From contig JACCQN010000003.1 in NCBI GenBank assembly GCA_015709215.1, positions 1 through 64,000 of the forward strand: a DNA stretch of 64,000 bases. The letters are read 5' to 3'. The stretch's first letter is position 1. Each line of letters begins with the position of its first letter. A program made the translations under genes and the position numbers. Under the pieces are notes generated by a model, which saw nothing but the letters and a program-made list of their open reading frames with translations, did no database searches and was not told the origin of the DNA. Positions 5,277 through 28,571 of this stretch are shown in pieces. Source of the stretch: Bacteroidales bacterium (lineage in GTDB: Bacteria > Bacteroidota > Bacteroidia > Bacteroidales > F082).

Positions 5277-6557
5277 GTGAAGCAACTCTATCCTAAAGCT
5301 TTTTGGATTTTATTTGTTATCTTATTGATTGCTTGTCGAAAAGAAACAAATAATAGCATTCCTGTTATCAATTTTGTATATCCACAGGGTGAATCGCCAG
5401 ATTTTAATCGGCTAGGTGAGCAAATTATTTTCAGCCTAACGGATGATCAGCTCATTCGGCAGGCACGTATTGGATGGGTTAACGAGGATTTTATACCCTT
5501 GAATAATCCGGAATGGATTGAAGTCAACAGCCTCGACACAACCCTAAATTATTGGTTAAGCGCCACTGATATTCCTTCGGGGAAGGCTTATATTCAAATC
5601 AGGGTTGATGATGGTGAGCATACAAAGTTGAAGTATCAGCCGGTAAATGTGAGCGAAGAACAGGGTTTAAGTCAGAAAATTATTTTTGGCTTTAATGAGA
5701 TGCAAAAGGGCTTTCTTTTCGGCTATGATACGACATCCGTTTACCCTGAAAAGTTTCTCATCACTCCTTATCCAATAAAACGGATTGAAGGTAATGCCGA
5801 AAACGATTTGCTTGCAATGCTTTCGGAAAATTTATCTTTTGTAGAAATCTGGTCAGGCAAGGATTCTATCGCGCTTTGGCGACAGGAGGCTTCGTTTCCT
5901 GAACCTAAATTTAGCGATTGGTATCTGGACGAGCATGCTATTTTACTGTCTGATTTTAATGGCAATTTGCGTTTGCATCATTTCAGAACAGGTCTCACCC
6001 AGGTAACTACCAAATTGGAAGCCGTTTATCGCATTTCAGCTGTGGCTTTTGATCAAGAATATATTTACGCCGCCGTCCGTGATATGCAAACGGACAGAAA
6101 GTGGCTTTACCTGTTTTATAAAGTTAGCGGTACTTTTTACAAGCGTTTTGAACTGACTTATTTGCCGTTCGATTTAATTCCAGTAGCTCACGACCACAGC
6201 TTGGTTATGTTTGCTGTTGACACCCAAACAACACACCTTATACATTTTAATACAATTACCGAAAGATTTATGCTGAAGAATTCACTTTCAAATTTTAAAC
6301 TGACGGGACCTGTTGTCAGGCAAGATGATAATTATTTTTTGCATGATTCAAGGGTTATCCAACTTTGGTCTTCTGTTTCAAACGTGACCAGCCTGCTAGC
6401 TAAAGGTATCCATATCAATGGAGTAGCAACGTTTAATACAGGAGTATTTGTTTTTTATCTGGATGATGACGTTTTTGAAGTTGTACATCCAAGTCCTCAA
6501 TATTCAGGTTATACTTTGCACAAACCTTTAACTTTTATCACAAGCAGCAGGGAATGA
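5277..6557 (+). CDS. Lipoprotein of unknown function, possible beta-propeller
   Basis: 426 residues with a lipoprotein signal: charged start, hydrophobic stretch, lipobox LLIAC with Cys near residue 20, then a polar segment. Export and lipid anchoring are therefore likely. The N-terminal 100 residues look Ig/cadherin-like, with 'IRVDDGEHTKLKYQPV'. The remainder contains repeated beta-strand segments reminiscent of a WD40/propeller (for example 'DLLAMLSENLSFVEIWSGKDS'). No catalytic motif is seen. The start is GTG. Its stop overlaps the ATG of mnmD (ATGA at 6554-6557), so the two are translationally coupled although functionally unlike. Family not recognised. Confidence 0.8.
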   Translation: MKQLYPKAFWILFVILLIACRKETNNSIPVINFVYPQGESPDFNRLGEQIIFSLTDDQLIRQARIGWVNEDFIPLNNPEWIEVNSLDTTLNYWLSATDIPSGKAYIQIRVDDGEHTKLKYQPVNVSEEQGLSQKIIFGFNEMQKGFLFGYDTTSVYPEKFLITPYPIKRIEGNAENDLLAMLSENLSFVEIWSGKDSIALWRQEASFPEPKFSDWYLDEHAILLSDFNGNLRLHHFRTGLTQVTTKLEAVYRISAVAFDQEYIYAAVRDMQTDRKWLYLFYKVSGTFYKRFELTYLPFDLIPVAHDHSLVMFAVDTQTTHLIHFNTITERFMLKNSLSNFKLTGPVVRQDDNYFLHDSRVIQLWSSVSNVTSLLAKGIHINGVATFNTGVFVFYLDDDVFEVVHPSPQYSGYTLHKPLTFITSSRE

Positions 6558-21461: not shown

Positions 21462-21870
21462 GAGAATTGGGGAAGTTTTTTTGATTTGATTTTTATCTCT
21501 TGATAGGTAGAAGCAAATTTCGAAGTGTTTATTGTTAATCCTAAAAATTAAAGAAGCAATTTTTGGATGTTATCAGCGTATGTTTTTGCGTTGGCTATTA
21601 AAGGAAATTGATTAAGAGTGAGGAATTAATGAAAGCTGACCTTGTATGTTGACTAAGCTTCGACTCTTATTTTTCAATTTTTAAATAAGCAAAGCTGCCT
21701 CTATTAATATTTAAATAAATTAATTTAATATTTGATAATCAATAGAATAGAAGACTTGTTAGAAGCTTCTGTAAGTTAAAAATCAGGATTCAAAAAAGTA
21801 GATAGTATCAGATGATTCACGTATTGTGCTTACATTTACAACTTCAAAGCAGCATTTTATCTTTATTTCC
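21462..21870. other. AT-rich intergenic region
   Basis: Roughly 400 bp between the tRNA promoter and the histidine kinase. It is strongly AT-rich with no reading frame of interest on either strand and no clear hairpin. It presumably holds the kinase promoter, which I cannot place. Confidence 0.5.
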
Positions 21871-24015
21871 ATGAAACTACAACCTTCAAATTTCCGATTT
21901 CTATTCCTTATAATATTTTCAATTTTATTATCAACCAGCACTTTATATGCGAAGGATAAATTTTCATACGAATCTGATTCCATCGTAATCTCCAGATGGG
22001 TAAAACCAATCAGAGATTCACTTTTTTCAAATCCTTATGTGGTTTTACCATGGTTGGATTCTCTGGAGGAGTTTTCAAAATCCAGTTCAAGTCCTTACAT
22101 TAAATATAGTTATAATAACTTGAAAGCCAATTTTTTTTGGGCTACAATTCGTTATGATTCTGCCAGAATTTATTATCATCGAGCTTTGTATAATGCCAAA
22201 AAAGGTAAATTGGATCAGCCATATATCAACGTACTGGGAAATTTGGGTATTTTATTTAATTTTTTGGACAACTTTGATTCCTCATCTTATTATTACTCAA
22301 AAGCAGTCGAACTGGCAAAATCAAAACAATTCTATGAGCTATATGTAAGAAATATCATCAATTACAGTAATATCTTTACTCAGCAAGGCTATTTTGCTAA
22401 ATCCATTGGTATGCTAACTGATGCCCAGCAAATGAGTAATGCAATGAAAAACAGCGAACTGGATGCAATGTTAGCTTCGGCCATGGCAACAATTTATTAT
22501 TCGCTTGGCGATATTAAACAAATGCATAAATATTATCACAAGGCGATCAGTCATTATAAAGTAACTCATAATCAAGCAGTTCTTGCTACAATTTATATGA
22601 ATATTGCAGAATCCTTTTCGAGCTTGGTAATTAATTATGATTCTGCTGTTTATTATTTTGATCAGGCTTTGGCAATCAGCAATAACCGGAATCGTGCAAA
22701 TATTTTAACTATGATCGACCTTACAAAGGGTAACTTACACTATAATGCTGGTCGGTACGATTCTGCAGAAGTCCGTTACTTAAAAGCAATTTATAATCCA
22801 CTGACAGAAAAACATCTCAGACGAAAAACAGCACTCCATATCAATCTGGCTAATGTTTATCGAAAAATTGGAAATTTTAACAAAGCAATGCTGTATTATT
22901 CAATTGGAGAGCGTTTGGCTGATTCATTAAATCTTGTCGATTACCATATTAATGCCTTGAATGGTATGATTTTAATTGATAGTGTTATGGGTGATTTTGA
23001 ACAGGCTTTTAACCGAAATAGACATTATCAGCGTTTGAAAGAGGTTTTAAATAAAGACAAAAGCATTAACGATCTGAAGGCTATGGAGGTGGAACGTGCA
23101 CTTGAATTACAAAAACTTAAATATGACCTGCTTGAAACAGAAAATAGCCTGCAGCAAAATCAACTCAGAAATCAGCAAATTTTAGGGATATTGATTTTGC
23201 TGGCCTTTATCAGCTCCCTGATTTTTACTGTTGTGCAAATACGAAACACAAGGAAAATCAGGCATTTAAATAAATTATTGAATGACAACATACATGAGCT
23301 TGACCAACAAAAGAGTGCTCTTGAAAAAGCAAATCAGGCCAAGGATAAATTCTTTGCCATTTTAAGTCATGATTTGCGCGGGCCTTCAGCTACCCTCCGA
23401 ACGGGTTTAGACATGCTTAACAATGAATGGCCTGAGTTTTCGGAAGAGGAAAGAACAAATTTGGTTCAACAACTTGATAATTTAGCTAATAGCACCTACG
23501 CGTTGCTTGAAGATTTGCTCGAATGGAGTCGTTTGCAACAAGGTATGATGAAAGTGGTTGAAACTAAATTTCGGCTTTTGGATATTGTTGAGGAAATTAA
23601 GCTGTTATTTTTCATGGCTTTTACTCAAAAACAGCAGGTTTTTAATTTAAAAATTACACCGGAAATTGAGGTAAAAACCGATTATCAAATGCTAAAACAA
23701 ATACTTCATAATCTTGTAGCTAATGCCATTAAATTCACACCTCGCGGAGGTACAATTAGCATCGAAGCAAGAGATACTCCTTCCGAATTGATTATTTATG
23801 TTAAGGATTCAGGGATTGGTATTCCTGTTGAAAAACTGGATCGTTTGTTTGAACTGGATGCTGATTTTGGCAGACCTGGAACCGAAGGCGAAAAAAGCTC
23901 GGGATTGGGACTAATCTTATGCAAAGATTATGCAACGCTTCTGGGCGCCACCTTAAAAGTGGAATCAGAACCGGAAAAAGGTTGCACATTTAGCCTTAGA
24001 TTTTCTAAAAGCTAA
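21871..24015 (+). CDS. TPR-repeat sensor histidine kinase
   Basis: 714 residues from ATG at 21871 (signal peptide about residues 1-29, ends LYAK). A longer frame to 21826 would place non-signal residues ahead. Residues about 60-400 are tetratricopeptide repeats, probably periplasmic. A membrane helix 'ILGILILLAFISSLIFTVVQI' lies near residue 430, then a coiled-coil linker. The HisKA motif 'FAILSHDLRGP' (phospho-His near 500) is followed by the HATPase motifs N ('NLVANAIKF'), G1 ('DSGIGIP') and G2 ('GLGLILCK'). No receiver or output domain and no response regulator gene is adjacent. The nearest regulator is the AraC-type gene 380 bp downstream. Confidence 0.93.
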   Translation: MKLQPSNFRFLFLIIFSILLSTSTLYAKDKFSYESDSIVISRWVKPIRDSLFSNPYVVLPWLDSLEEFSKSSSSPYIKYSYNNLKANFFWATIRYDSARIYYHRALYNAKKGKLDQPYINVLGNLGILFNFLDNFDSSSYYYSKAVELAKSKQFYELYVRNIINYSNIFTQQGYFAKSIGMLTDAQQMSNAMKNSELDAMLASAMATIYYSLGDIKQMHKYYHKAISHYKVTHNQAVLATIYMNIAESFSSLVINYDSAVYYFDQALAISNNRNRANILTMIDLTKGNLHYNAGRYDSAEVRYLKAIYNPLTEKHLRRKTALHINLANVYRKIGNFNKAMLYYSIGERLADSLNLVDYHINALNGMILIDSVMGDFEQAFNRNRHYQRLKEVLNKDKSINDLKAMEVERALELQKLKYDLLETENSLQQNQLRNQQILGILILLAFISSLIFTVVQIRNTRKIRHLNKLLNDNIHELDQQKSALEKANQAKDKFFAILSHDLRGPSATLRTGLDMLNNEWPEFSEEERTNLVQQLDNLANSTYALLEDLLEWSRLQQGMMKVVETKFRLLDIVEEIKLLFFMAFTQKQQVFNLKITPEIEVKTDYQMLKQILHNLVANAIKFTPRGGTISIEARDTPSELIIYVKDSGIGIPVEKLDRLFELDADFGRPGTEGEKSSGLGLILCKDYATLLGATLKVESEPEKGCTFSLRFSKS

Positions 24016-24397: not shown

Positions 24398-24958
24398 ATG
24401 GTCCTTTACATCCGGTATATGGTTAGCCTGCGCTGCAAAATGCTAGTGAAAAAGGAGCTTAAGAAGCTGGGGCTTTGGTATGTATTTGTCGACCTTGGCA
24501 CAGTCGAAATCCAAGGCGAGATTACTGACGAACAACGACAGCTACTAAAATCAAACCTTTTAAAATCTGGGCTGGAATTACTTGATGATAAAAAAAGTAT
24601 CCTGATTGAAAGAATAAAAAATGTTGTGATCGAAATGATTCATTACAATGAGGAATTGCCAAAAATAAATTTTTCAAGTTTTATAAGTCAAAAAATCGGA
24701 TATGATTACACCTATTTATCCAATATTTTTTCGGAGGTAAAAGGGATTACTTTACAGCAATATATTATCATGCACCGGATTGAAAAAGTAAAAGAAATGT
24801 TGCTTTACGACGATCTTTCATTAACCGAAATTTCTTACCGGCTGCAGTACAGTAGTGTTGCACATTTATCTAATCAATTTAAAAAAGTAACCGGGCTCAC
24901 ACCATCTTATTTTAAGCAGTTGAAGCAAAAACGACGAAGAAACCTCGAAAATCTGTAA
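24398..24958 (+). CDS. AraC-family transcriptional regulator with ferredoxin-like (HMA-like) N-domain
   Basis: 186 residues. The N-terminal 60 residues ('YIRYMVSLRCKMLVKKELKKLGLWYVFVDLGTVEI') have the beta-alpha-beta pattern of a heavy-metal-associated domain but only one cysteine of the CxxC motif (SLRC), so metal binding is doubtful. Residues about 80-180 are the two AraC helix-turn-helix motifs, ending in 'YSSVAHLSNQFKKVTGLTPSYFKQL'. The type is common in Bacteroidota ahead of stress genes. It is followed by a small membrane protein, an OmpA protein and further small genes whose upstream regions share a direct-repeat motif, so it is the obvious candidate activator. Confidence 0.9.
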   Translation: MVLYIRYMVSLRCKMLVKKELKKLGLWYVFVDLGTVEIQGEITDEQRQLLKSNLLKSGLELLDDKKSILIERIKNVVIEMIHYNEELPKINFSSFISQKIGYDYTYLSNIFSEVKGITLQQYIIMHRIEKVKEMLLYDDLSLTEISYRLQYSSVAHLSNQFKKVTGLTPSYFKQLKQKRRRNLENL

Positions 24959-24962
24959 AATA

Positions 24963-24994
24963 TGTAACACTTTGCCAGAAGTGTGTAACGTTTT
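24963..24994 (+). promoter_or_regulatory. Candidate activator site 1: two TGTAAC repeats, 21 bp apart
   Basis: TGTAACACTTT at 24963-24973 and TGTAACGTTTT at 24984-24994, in the same orientation and 21 bp apart (two helical turns). It starts 5 bp after the AraC-family stop and ends about 60 bp before the next gene. Direct repeats on one face of the helix are typical of AraC-family binding. The assignment to the neighbouring AraC protein is inference. Confidence 0.6.
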
Positions 24995-25053
24995 TTCTCC
25001 TTACTCATCGCAACTTTGACTTTGTCAATATTGACATAAGTAAAGTAATCAAA

Positions 25054-25266
25054 ATGAAAATTTTAGGAATTTCAATCCTGCTTATTGGTTTGGTAATCAC
25101 ACTGATAACAGGATTTAACTATGTAACCCGCGAAAAGGTTATGGACATCGGCGATATGGAAGTCACTGTGAATAAAAATCATTCGGTGGCTTGGTCACCT
25201 ATTGCCGGAGCGGTTGTAATGGCTATTGGTGGCGGAATTTTACTCTTTGGAGTTAAAAAGCCTTAG
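25054..25266 (+). CDS. Small two-helix membrane protein
   Basis: 70 residues. Two hydrophobic segments, 'ILGISILLIGLVITLITGF' (residues 3-21) and 'AWSPIAGAVVMAIGGGILLFGV' (about 46-67), flank a polar loop. Resembles DUF3185-type membrane proteins. Function unknown. It is the first gene after the first TGTAAC repeat site, 87 bp after AraC, and therefore likely regulated by it. Confidence 0.75.
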   Translation: MKILGISILLIGLVITLITGFNYVTREKVMDIGDMEVTVNKNHSVAWSPIAGAVVMAIGGGILLFGVKKP

Positions 25267-25358
25267 AGCTATTATACCTATCAGTAGCTGCTATTGATTC
25301 AATGAATTTGTTAAACGCTTCATTTTTAGGGAATATTACTGGAAAAATGAGTGATCGA

Positions 25359-25390
25359 TGTAAATCTTTTTCAGACTTCTGTAACACTTT
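25359..25390 (+). promoter_or_regulatory. Candidate activator site 2: two TGTAA repeats, 21 bp apart
   Basis: TGTAAATCTTT at 25359-25369 and TGTAACACTTT at 25380-25390. The second half-site is identical over 11 bp to the first half-site of site 1, and the spacing is again 21 bp. It lies about 70 bp upstream of the OmpA-family start. Confidence 0.6.
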
Positions 25391-25458
25391 ACCCTATAAA
25401 CGACCGCAATTTAACACCTTCAGATTCAAGTTTTAATTATCAAGCTAATTTCAAAAAA

Positions 25459-26799
25459 ATGAAAAAATCTATCTTTTTAATTGCCTTGTTAATTGCAGTT
25501 TCTTTTGCTGCAAATACACAAAACAGAACGCGACCGTGGCTGGTTGGTGTAAGTACAAACTATGTTGATTTCCATGCCGTTAGAATGCCCGTTAGCGACC
25601 AGTTGACGGATATGAACTGGATGGGAAACACGATTGTATCCCAGTTAAAAGTTGGCCGTTTGCTGAGTAAAGAAGTTGTTTTCAGTATAGAAGTGTCGAT
25701 GCTTAATCTGGAAACCGACAAACTGAATAGCTGGGGTTCTCTGGAACAGCCTATCACAAAGACCAATGATATGATGCGATTTCAGGGGCAGTTTGAATAC
25801 AAATTTGCTAATGGCTACCTGTTGAAGGAAGATGCCCTGTTTGATCCTTACTTTTTTTTGGGTGTGAATGGTAGCCGGATAGACAAAACCACATATATGG
25901 CTCAATCAACTGGAATTGGTCTAAATATCTGGTTAACAAAGTGGTTGGCAGTAAATGCCGAGGTGTCATATGACTATCTTTTCGACTTTAATGACTATAT
26001 GCATTATTCCTTTGGCATTGCTACAAGATTCAATAAGAGATCAGCTAAAGCGGCTCCTGTCGAGGCAGTTACAGAACTTGTTGCCATAGCTCCTGATAAA
26101 GACGGTGATGGTGTGCCTGATCATAACGATCGTTGTCCAGATGTTGCCGGTCTATCATGGTTCGATGGCTGTCCGGATTCTGATGGTGACGGCGTACCGG
26201 ATCATCTTGACGAATGTGCTGATATTGCTGGACTTGCGTGGCTCAACGGCTGTCCCGACAGTGATGGCGACGGCATTGCCGATCATTTAGATGATTGCCC
26301 AAATGTGGCAGGTGATGCTAGCGCGAAAGGCTGCCCCGATGCTGATGGCGATGGCGTTACGGATGAGTTGGATAATTGCCCTGAAGAAGCCGGCCCTGCC
26401 GAAAATTATGGCTGTCCGATGCTCGATTTGGTTAAAATCAGAGAAATTGAATCTACCCTTCAAAGTTTTGCAGATCGTATTGAGTTTGAAACTGCCAAAT
26501 TCATTATCAAGCCAAGTTCTTATCCTAAAATGGATGAAATCATTCAGACGATGGAAAAATATCCAAATGCGAAATTTGAAATTGAAGGACATACCGATAA
26601 TGTTGGTAGCGAAGAAGATAACCAAACACTTTCGGAAAGCCGTGCTTATGCCGTACGTCAGTATTTTGTTGATAAAGGTGTTGACACCAGTCGTTTGAGC
26701 TTTAAAGGATATGGCGAATTGCGTCCGAGAGACACGAACGAAACCGCTGCCGGAAGGGCAAATAACCGACGTGTGGAAATAAGGCTGCTACAACAGTAA
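25459..26799 (+). CDS. OmpA-family outer-membrane protein with thrombospondin type-3 repeats
   Basis: 446 residues from ATG at 25459; an upstream in-frame extension to 25351 would run through the activator site. Signal peptide about residues 1-21. An N-terminal beta-barrel-like domain follows (to about residue 195). Then four calcium-binding-type DxDGDGxxD repeats (from 'DKDGDGVPDHNDRCPD' on, each ending in GCPD). The C-terminal OmpA domain binds peptidoglycan ('EGHTDNVGSEEDNQTLSESRA'). It is the largest product of the AraC-linked cluster and likely anchors the envelope. Confidence 0.93.
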   Translation: MKKSIFLIALLIAVSFAANTQNRTRPWLVGVSTNYVDFHAVRMPVSDQLTDMNWMGNTIVSQLKVGRLLSKEVVFSIEVSMLNLETDKLNSWGSLEQPITKTNDMMRFQGQFEYKFANGYLLKEDALFDPYFFLGVNGSRIDKTTYMAQSTGIGLNIWLTKWLAVNAEVSYDYLFDFNDYMHYSFGIATRFNKRSAKAAPVEAVTELVAIAPDKDGDGVPDHNDRCPDVAGLSWFDGCPDSDGDGVPDHLDECADIAGLAWLNGCPDSDGDGIADHLDDCPNVAGDASAKGCPDADGDGVTDELDNCPEEAGPAENYGCPMLDLVKIREIESTLQSFADRIEFETAKFIIKPSSYPKMDEIIQTMEKYPNAKFEIEGHTDNVGSEEDNQTLSESRAYAVRQYFVDKGVDTSRLSFKGYGELRPRDTNETAAGRANNRRVEIRLLQQ

Positions 26800-26855
26800 T
26801 TTACGAAACAATGAGGAACCCCATTAGTAATTGGTCTTACAATACAAATGCTTTA

Positions 26856-26887
26856 ATTACCACATTTTATGATAATTGTAATACTTT
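26856..26887 (+). promoter_or_regulatory. Candidate activator site 3: weaker TGTAAC repeat pair, 21 bp apart
   Basis: TGTAATACTTT at 26877-26887 matches the motif at 10 of 11 positions. A half-site matching at 7 of 11 positions (ATTACCACATT) starts 21 bp earlier at 26856. It sits about 60 bp ahead of the small membrane protein gene at 26948. Confidence 0.45.
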
Positions 26888-26947
26888 CTTTACTGATGGG
26901 CTCCCTCTTTTTTAAAAACAGTTTATTCATTCAGAAAATTAGAAATC

Positions 26948-27103
26948 ATGTCAAATATTCTTTACATCATTGCTGTAATACTTATCGTTTTGTGGGCAAT
27001 TGGTTTTCTGGGCTATAATGCCGGAGGAATCATTCATATATTACTGGTCATCGCCCTTATTGCAGTAATTCTCAGAATAATTCAAGGAAAGAAATTACTC
27101 TGA
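26948..27103 (+). CDS. lmo0937-family small membrane protein
   Basis: 51 residues, translated by eye from ATG 26948 to TGA 27101-27103. Two hydrophobic helices: 'ILYIIAVILIVLWAIGFLGY' and 'IHILLVIALIAVILRII', with the short linker 'NAGGI'. The pattern 'A-GFLGYNAGGIIHILLVIA' is the lmo0937-type stress-induced membrane peptide. The function in the cell is not established. Preceded by activator site 3 and followed after about 40 bp by a Lys-rich small gene. Confidence 0.8.
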   Translation: MSNILYIIAVILIVLWAIGFLGYNAGGIIHILLVIALIAVILRIIQGKKLL

Positions 27104-27144
27104 TTTTTAAGAAAAGCTATTTATTCATCTAACAATAAATCAAA

Positions 27145-27300
27145 ATGTCACACGAAAAGGTTCCAAAAGAAAAGTCAGATAAAAAGACTCCGGTCAAAAA
27201 CCTGAAAGAGAAACGGGCTGCCAAAGCGGCAAAACGTAATGAGAAAAAAAGAGGGTTTAAAATTGACGCTTTCGCTGCGTCCTTAAAAGCTAAAAATTGA
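27145..27300 (+). CDS. Small Lys-rich basic protein
   Basis: 51 residues from ATG at 27145 to TGA at 27298-27300, translated by eye. About a third of the residues are Lys or Arg ('KKTPVKNLKEKRAAKAAKRNEKKRG'), with no membrane segment and no Cys. It could bind nucleic acid or be a stress-related disordered protein; that is inference. It lies 41 bp after the lmo0937-type gene without an intervening promoter, so likely in the same transcript. Confidence 0.6.
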   Translation: MSHEKVPKEKSDKKTPVKNLKEKRAAKAAKRNEKKRGFKIDAFAASLKAKN

Positions 27301-27393: not shown

Positions 27394-27870
27394 ATGAAAA
27401 TAAAAATAGGATTAACAATATTTTTTGCAACATGTCTTTTTTTCTTTGTCAACGCACAGGATTACAATACAGGAATAGGCTTCAGAGGAGGGTTTTCAAA
27501 CGGATTAACAGTAAAGCACTTTTTTAGTCCCAAAGCCGTATTCGAAGGGATTCTTTCTTCACGATGGTCAGGTTTTCAAGTCACCGGACTTTACAAAATT
27601 CACAATCGTGCCTTCAATACCGATCGATTGAATTGGTATTTTTGATTTAGAGCTCATGTCGGATTTTGGAATGGCGACAAAGTTCCACGGTCAGATAACA
27701 ATGATAAACATACTGTAGTGGGAGTTGATGGCATTTTGGAATTGGAATATAGTTTCAGGGAAATACCTATAAATCTGAGTATTGACTGGAAGCCTGAACT
27801 CAATTTTTATGGTCACAATGGTTTTTGGGGTGATGGCGGCACTTTGTCGATACGCTATATTTTTAGCTGA
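27394..27870 (+). pseudogene. Outer-membrane beta-barrel protein with an in-frame TGA
   Basis: Begins with a signal peptide (MKIKIGLTIF...FVNAQ) followed by a beta-barrel pattern ('TGIGFRGGFSNGLTVKHFF'). The frame is open for 83 codons, then meets TGA at 27643-27645, and continues open for about 75 more codons to TGA at 27868-27870. The continuation reads as the rest of the same barrel ('FRAHVGFWNGDKV...ELEYSFREIPINLSIDWKPEL'), so a single base change (for example GGA to TGA) broke it. A sequencing error cannot be excluded. Related OM proteins in this size class exist in Bacteroidota. Confidence 0.72.
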
Positions 27871-28220: not shown

Positions 28221-28571
28221 ATGGAAAACAGAGAAATGGAAAAGGGGAAATCGTTCATTATAGTCGAAATAATAGAATATGTTCCAAATTCAGTGGTAAT
28301 CAAAACGATAGTCAAGAAGACAACAGGAAATGTTAGTGCTGTTTCATTTGATTCCGGCGAATCTCTGACAGACAGGATTTCACCTTTCGACAACTTCATA
28401 CAGATCATTGACGGTAATGCTGAAATCATTATTGATTATAAAAGCAATAAGCTACAAACTGGTCAGGCTATTATCATTCCGGCACATACTTCCAATACTA
28501 TCAAGGCTAACGAACGCTTTAAAATGATAACAACCATGATTAAAAGTGGTTATGAGGAAGTATGCGCCTAA
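28221..28571 (+). CDS. Small cupin-domain protein
   Basis: 116 residues (an internal Met at 28236 is an alternative start). A cupin barrel is suggested by 'SPFDNFIQIIDGNAEIII', 'LQTGQAIIIPAHTSNTIKA' and the final strand 'FKMITTMIKSGYEEV'. The single His and the absence of the first HxH motif make metal binding doubtful. It ends the AraC-linked cluster. Ligand and role unknown. Confidence 0.82.
   Translation: MENREMEKGKSFIIVEIIEYVPNSVVIKTIVKKTTGNVSAVSFDSGESLTDRISPFDNFIQIIDGNAEIIIDYKSNKLQTGQAIIIPAHTSNTIKANERFKMITTMIKSGYEEVCA

Follow-up and report, generated by a model that had tools for sequence, protein, structure and literature searches.

Is the repeated, operator-like sequence behind an AraC-type gene of a Bacteroidales bacterium a real regulatory element, and is it the neighboring regulator that acts through it? 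The locus lies in a 64,000-nucleotide stretch of contig JACCQN010000003.1 (the window), which belongs to a 3.45 Mb genome in 106 contigs that is 97% complete (G000). It comprises a gene for an AraC-type regulator, followed by genes for a 70-residue membrane protein, an OmpA/TSP3 outer-membrane protein and an lmo0937-family membrane protein. A sequence-only reading had placed a TGTAAC-type pair with a 21-bp period in front of each of the three and had taken the cluster for a compact regulon with a self-contained activator. Clearly, the operator is real, conserved, predictable from sequence and located beside one sub-type of AraC-type regulator. It is quite probable that this regulator is an activator with an HMA-like sensor, driving promoters through the 21-bp tandem operator at about ten genes per genome in relatives. 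The best reading of our results is that a metal-responsive AraC-type activator has been re-used as a stress regulator.

Two tandem operators downstream of the AraC-type gene

The operator is a direct repeat of the half-site TGTAAnnnTTT, and a -7-type box ends 56 bp from the first base of the repeat. In operator 1, TGTAACACTTT at 24963 is followed 21 bp on by TGTAACGTTTT; this is the sole zero-mismatch TGTAAC-N15-TGTAAC in the window, it starts 4 bp past the stop codon of the AraC-type gene, as it does in relatives, and the CTTTG of promoter 1 starts 51 bp from its first base. Operator 2 reads TGTAAA in its first half and TGTAAC in its second, with one mismatch in the half-site pattern and three when the -7 box is included. 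Of the three pairs proposed earlier, that at 24963/24984 is therefore exact and that at 25359/25380 is real with an altered first half, but at 26856 the upstream half reads ATTACC, which is not a TGTAAC-type sequence. The 11-mer TGTAACACTTT, described as identical at the first two sites, does occur at 24963 and 25380, but as the upstream half of site 1 and the downstream half of site 2.

The bare hexamer pair proved too weak to serve as the decisive motif. With up to three mismatches, TGTAAC-N15-TGTAAC had 70 matches in the window, near the chance level (expected 53.3, standard deviation 8.8; 70 reached in 2 of 100 shuffles), and at the same tolerance the two half-sites alone gave no separation from the reversed control in the window's own genome (79 versus 77 matches). 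With the -7 box added, the counts in this genome were 4 versus 2, and a profile model then separated the sites. The box keeps a fixed distance from the repeat: in 13 regions next to AraC-type genes of other genomes, CTTTG or TTTTG stands at the same offset. A matrix built from these 13 sites, whose loci were picked by eye and 2 of which come from the two closest relatives, ranked the three places of the window 1, 2 and 3 on both strands. When the matrix was built from 86 sites of other genera, their scores were 45.1, 33.0 and 0.7 bits (ranks 1, 2 and 4), while the top score in 60 windows simulated with a first-order Markov model was 2.4 bits on average (standard deviation 3.0, highest 10.5). 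A calibrated model of the 86 sites, which were picked by pattern or matrix, so that their conserved columns are partly selected, put operators 1 and 2 at the top of the whole genome, with E 2.1e-7 and 2.2e-6 and the next match at 0.145; of 2404 first-look candidates, 150 were scored. A random scatter of motif pairs over the genome would have refuted the sequence-only reading, and the full motif shows no such scatter. Operators 1 and 2 are firmly established, and it is the extended motif that decides.

Site 3 was rejected as an operator. It has one good half only, its 0.7 bits lie within the simulated maxima, and its partial match in the window has E 0.12. It is equally degenerate in a 94%-identical relative (L009), and no equivalent precedes the lmo0937 gene in another relative (L010).

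The operator accompanies the regulator in related genomes

We counted the pattern, with up to three mismatches, in 149 genomes of the bacterial family and compared the counts with the best match of the regulator in each; the pattern was a chosen one, and both the grouping by regulator and the control are independent of the matrix. In the 16 genomes with a close orthologue (57-100% identity) there were 175 motif matches versus 27 in the reversed control, with 4-19 per genome. The 45 genomes with a weaker regulator match only had 79 versus 54, and the 88 genomes with no regulator match at E 1e-15 were at the background level (67 versus 80). The same pattern was found within genera: in five genera that include both kinds, 15 genomes with a close orthologue averaged 11.1 matches and 13 without one averaged 1.5, a contrast whose observed sum was reached by 1 of 200,000 stratified shuffles. 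This test omits G007, the only genome with a close orthologue that has no partner genome in its genus.

The spacing of the half-sites was assessed using neither the matrix nor the -7 box. Among the 150 half-site pairs listed out of 192 (from 13 of the 16 genomes) with spacings of 12-42 bp, 45 were 21 bp apart, as compared with a mean of 3.5 and a maximum of 12 at other spacings. A lesser excess, 12 of the 150 listed pairs, was seen at 15 bp. Likewise, within 150 bp behind 75 homologues of the regulator gene, 30 had a pair at 21 bp and at most 6 had one at any other distance. Scored with the matrix, 25 of the 75 exceeded 20 bits at any place examined, and in 18 homologues the best match exceeded 20 bits and started exactly 4 bp past the stop codon, 10 of these 18 being themselves among the 86 sites. 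In relatives, the motif recurs beside orthologues of the regulator gene and in front of many further genes; its lack of conservation at orthologues was the second outcome that would have refuted the sequence-only reading.

An AraC-type DNA-binding domain fused to an HMA-like domain

The regulator matches Pfam HTH_18 (E 1.3e-18, 67.5 bits, cut-off 33.6) and HTH_AraC (E 1.6e-12, 47.6 bits, cut-off 26.6), and by its double helix-turn-helix domain it belongs to the AraC/XylS family. In the AlphaFold2 model (predicted local distance difference test score 92.2, predicted template-modeling score 0.82), the elements are ordered beta-alpha-beta-beta-alpha-beta, a long helix, and the AraC double helix-turn-helix. 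The N-terminal domain, residues 1-63, is HMA (metallochaperone)-like, and profile comparison matched it with CopA and CopZ in their HMA domains (best 8e-4). It lacks the CxxC metal site of HMA domains, as SLRC replaces CxxC and leaves one Cys. All 42 members in the alignment have this residue, Cys13, the second Cys of the motif. Pfam HMA matches 9 of 42 relatives of the regulator, with a best E of 2.4e-7.

A paralogue in the same genome (G000:C81, positions 5550-6125, L158), 38% identical and with MLCDCC in place of the motif, was considered as operator-linked and rejected, its best nearby site scoring -7.4 bits; it forms a very long branch in the tree. In Flavobacterium terrisoli (L016:6001-7213), two tandem copies of the regulator gene are followed by a PAS-type gene (assigned by eye), and a tandem copy is also present in L181.

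A proposed change of targets and loss of a cysteine

In a tree of 74 homologues, the window protein, all 51 SxxC members and four CxxC members form a set of 55 (Shimodaira-Hasegawa-like approximate likelihood ratio test support 99). This was a quick tree whose root was set at the midpoint for drawing, and its deep forks are poorly resolved. In the stress clade, to which the window regulator belongs, the first Cys is mostly Ser, and the targets are stress genes. Nine of the 19 homologues outside the set of 55, all with an intact CxxC, have a site beside a metal-type gene, as found in 18 chosen loci: a CusA/CzcA-type efflux gene, an SO_0444-type Cu/Zn efflux permease gene or a gene for an HMA protein. 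These neighbors were assigned in eight of the nine cases by Pfam on the first 100 residues (three genes also by NCBIfam) and by likeness in L199; the efflux gene of L045 comes second among the frames after the site. In six of the nine metal-type loci the site starts 4 bp past the stop codon. The half-sites of the nine have diverged (TACAAC, TATAAC), and their matrix scores range between 43.6 and -2.6.

Three deep-branching CxxC members of the 55 (L036, L193 and L195) lie near cupin or CsbD-like genes (L036 and L195 assigned by Pfam; L193 by eye, its cupin being the second frame). This suggests that the targets changed before the Cys was lost, as far as poorly resolved deep forks and a midpoint root allow such an order to be read. 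Most of the stress clade no longer has the first Cys, so a metal ion bound between a pair of Cys is probably not what this clade senses.

Targets of the operator in relatives and in the window

Among 103 candidate targets in relatives, the median distance from site to ATG was 95 bp, and 82 of the 103 fell within 60-130 bp; the target of a site was taken to be the longest nearby frame with an ATG and is not an annotated gene, and family names come from one representative each. Per genome, some ten genes have the same promoter in front of them, and many of these belong to stress or envelope families. The recurrent ones are OmpA types (11 labels, at most 10 organisms), CsbD (11), lmo0937 (7, named via an NCBIfam match and likeness to family members), cupin (7), YtxH (6), a group like AsmA/DUF748 (5, named by eye) and the Thivi_2564 membrane protein (3), counts in which L009, L115 and G065, which are one organism, and L010, L110 and G008, which are another, are treated as separate labels. 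Ferritin, rubrerythrin and an M48 peptidase were targets in single genomes. Several further groups consist of lipoproteins or repeat proteins that have no clear name, and the label of stress regulon therefore rests on part of the target set. A passage of PMC2813243 lists lmo0937 as sigma-B dependent in Listeria, and the gene also appears in tables of PMC7690807.

In the window, both operators stand before a gene, at a distance like that in relatives (Table 1). The 70-residue membrane protein had no family in a Pfam search, and its orthologues lie downstream of the same site in two relatives (G065, G008). The OmpA/TSP3 protein matches Pfam OmpA (2.8e-22) and TSP_3 (1.8e-13). The ATG of the lmo0937-family gene is 92 bp from the start of site 3, and the lmo0937-family genes of relatives sit downstream of strong sites. 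The small basic protein gene behind it likely belongs to the same transcription unit. The cupin gene has no site of its own among the window's best matches.

With the CsbD probe there was no match in G000 and G035, and there were matches in G008 and G065; with the YtxH probe, G000 had only a 39%-identical protein, and G008 and G065 had matches of 81-100%. Since in G000 the CsbD probe matched nothing and the YtxH probe only a distant protein, while both probes had matches in these two relatives, the regulon of the window's genome appears reduced, probably to this locus, which at 97% completeness is not proof of loss.

The sequence-only reading was borne out in its compact group of promoters that share an operator of 21-bp period next to an AraC-type gene. 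The self-containment that it attributed to the cluster was not, if taken as autoregulation: among the window's best matches there is none upstream of the AraC-type gene. Four things had escaped it: that the -7 box is fixed in place, that the regulator has an HMA-like domain, that relatives have a larger regulon, and that there are metal-efflux relatives.

Table 1. Position of the features at the locus (window coordinates).
Feature	Position	Strand	Remarks
TPR-containing sensor histidine kinase	21826-24015		just upstream of the regulator gene
AraC-type regulator gene, 186 residues	24398..24958	+	HMA-like N-terminal domain and AraC double helix-turn-helix
Operator 1	24963..24994	+	half-sites 24963-24973 and 24984-24994, 21 bp apart; 0 mismatches
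-7 box of promoter 1, CAACTTTG	25011..25018	+	offset fixed in 13/13 training loci (chosen by eye)
70-residue membrane protein	25054..25266	+	promoter 1 target; ATG 91 bp from site start
Operator 2	25359..25390	+	half-sites 25359-25369 and 25380-25390, 21 bp apart
Degenerate -7-like box of promoter 2, CAATTTAA	25407..25414	+	position only; final G absent
OmpA/TSP3 outer-membrane protein	25459..26799	+	promoter 2 target; ATG 100 bp from site start
Doubtful site 3	26856..26911	+	one half good (TGTAATACTTT, 26877-26887), the other degenerate; CTTTT where the -7 box would be
lmo0937-family membrane protein, 51 residues	26948..27103	+	NCBIfam NF033488, 1.5e-17, above cut-off
Small basic protein, 51 residues	27145..27300	+	similar protein after the lmo0937 gene in L012 and L018
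Outer-membrane-like protein gene	27394-27870		in-frame stop
Cupin protein	28221..28571	+	55-59% identity to operator-linked cupins of 7 other loci/genomes

The histidine kinase upstream of the regulator has no receiver domain and is FimS-like, with an NCBIfam match of 8.8e-49 that is below the cut-off. We considered it as a conserved partner and rejected it: at E 1e-30 it was found only in its own genome and the closest relative among the loci compared, many of which had about 1.5 kb of flank. The outer-membrane-like gene is differently damaged in L009 and an open frame in L012; its in-frame stop may be decay or an assembly error.

Alternative explanations

That the sites are a chance likeness of AT-rich intergenic stretches would agree with the near-chance count of the bare hexamer pair and with site 3, for which chance is not refuted; for sites 1 and 2 it is refuted by the genome-wide E, the co-occurrence with the regulator, the excess of the 21-bp spacing and the within-genus shuffles, and as a whole it has almost no probability left. 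Barely more credible is a reading of the motif as the extended promoter that an alternative sigma factor would recognize, with no operator in it. The fixed distance to the -7 box is what such a promoter would have, but the box resembles the primary TAnnTTTG as given in part of PMC9723704, two equal direct repeats reaching out to about -60 are no sigma signature, and the motif matches follow the AraC-type gene. Another co-inherited regulator could bind the operator, with the AraC-type gene a mere neighbor, and a PAS-type kinase gene does follow the AraC-type gene in some relatives (judged by eye). We consider this unlikely, as the motif matches follow the AraC-type gene within genera, the site lies 4 bp past its stop codon in many relatives, direct repeats at 21 bp suit monomers of the AraC family, as in araI1-I2, and metal-type paralogues have the same architecture. 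There is also little to be said for a regulator that binds and represses until a stress signal releases it: the downstream half-site is indeed close to the -7 box, but the arrangement resembles the class II activator sites of AraC-family members, and the site alignment contains no conserved TTTG-type -33 box, which suits activator-dependent promoters.

Several results weigh against activation by an AraC-type protein with an HMA-like sensor. The window's genome has only two firm sites, and the -7 box of promoter 2 is poor. In the stretches examined, the operator was not seen near some close orthologues (e.g., L026, L027, L029, L031 and L033), and 10 of the 19 homologues outside the stress clade have no assigned target. 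Outside the bacterial family, 16 chosen genomes with the regulator gave a weak signal, 39 matches versus 17 in the control (20 versus 20 in 16 chosen genomes with no regulator match). As for the sensor, Pfam HMA (PF00403) does not match the window regulator at E 0.1 or 1, and the fold of its N-terminal domain, with Z of 7.2-7.7 to GolB, Atx1 and HAH1, is as close to ACT domains (7.4).

Proposed mechanism and its implications

Computation shows the sites, their spacing and conservation, their co-occurrence with the gene, the domain architecture and the split in targets. That the AraC-type protein binds and activates is a well-supported inference; for binding and activation, the start site and the signal the course would be as follows. 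Each TGTAAnnnTTT half-site would be bound by the double helix-turn-helix of one monomer, so that two monomers, separated by 21 bp or two turns of the helix, occupy one of its faces in head-to-tail order. If the -7 box is set at -12 to -5, as in the relevant part of PMC9723704, promoter 1 would start near 25023. Its repeats would then cover -60 to -50 and -39 to -29 and be adjacent to a -7 box read by the primary sigma factor. By analogy, the bound monomers may touch or recruit RNA polymerase in a class II-like manner. In class II activation by AraC-family members, the activator contacts RNA polymerase. Such activation would drive the genes for the 70-residue membrane protein and the OmpA/TSP3 protein, perhaps also lmo0937 and cupin further down, and a thiol switch at Cys13 is a possible route for the signal.

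Tentatively, we suggest that a copper-sensing AraC-type regulator became the master activator of a general and envelope stress regulon, that its targets changed first and one Cys was lost, and that the remaining Cys acts as a thiol/redox switch; this evolutionary course is possible, though doubtful. If true, a counterpart of the sigma-B regulon, with CsbD, YtxH, lmo0937, OmpA and ferritin-like genes, would exist in Bacteroidota, for which we know of no counterpart of RpoS or sigma-B. The present results provide, for a stress response in this phylum, a regulator, an operator and a list of genes that can be put to the test, and a case in which the operator architecture was kept while the metal site of the sensor and the target genes changed. 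Within this bacterial family, TGTAAnnnTTT-N10-TGTAAnnnTTT-N19-CTTTG predicts candidate members of the regulon.

Comparison with known systems

Each part of the system is of a known kind. Of the combination of an HMA-derived domain and a stress-type regulon with an architecture common with metal-efflux relatives, we found no instance in the open-licence PMC papers searched. By its double helix-turn-helix, the regulator resembles MarA (Z 12.6), SoxS (11.9), the AraC domain of E. coli (11.5) and Rob. In AraC, the direct araI1-I2 half-sites lie about two turns apart beside the promoter, and the 21-bp direct half-sites described here are placed similarly. In contrast to AraC, with its arabinose-binding cupin, the sensor here is a 63-residue HMA-like domain, the half-site is TGTAAnnnTTT, and the promoter has a Bacteroidota -7 box. 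The metallochaperones CopZ, Atx1 and GolB, together with CopA, share with this sensor the beta-alpha-beta-beta-alpha-beta order, the profile match to CopA/CopZ and, in relatives of the regulator, the CxxC; the window protein differs from them in its SLRC with one Cys and in its fusion to a DNA-binding domain. CsbD and YtxH are sigma-B genes of Bacillus. Together with lmo0937, they are the target families in common with the sigma-B regulons of Listeria and Bacillus, which differ from the system described here in that the latter has an AraC-type operator, next to a -7 box that resembles the primary one.

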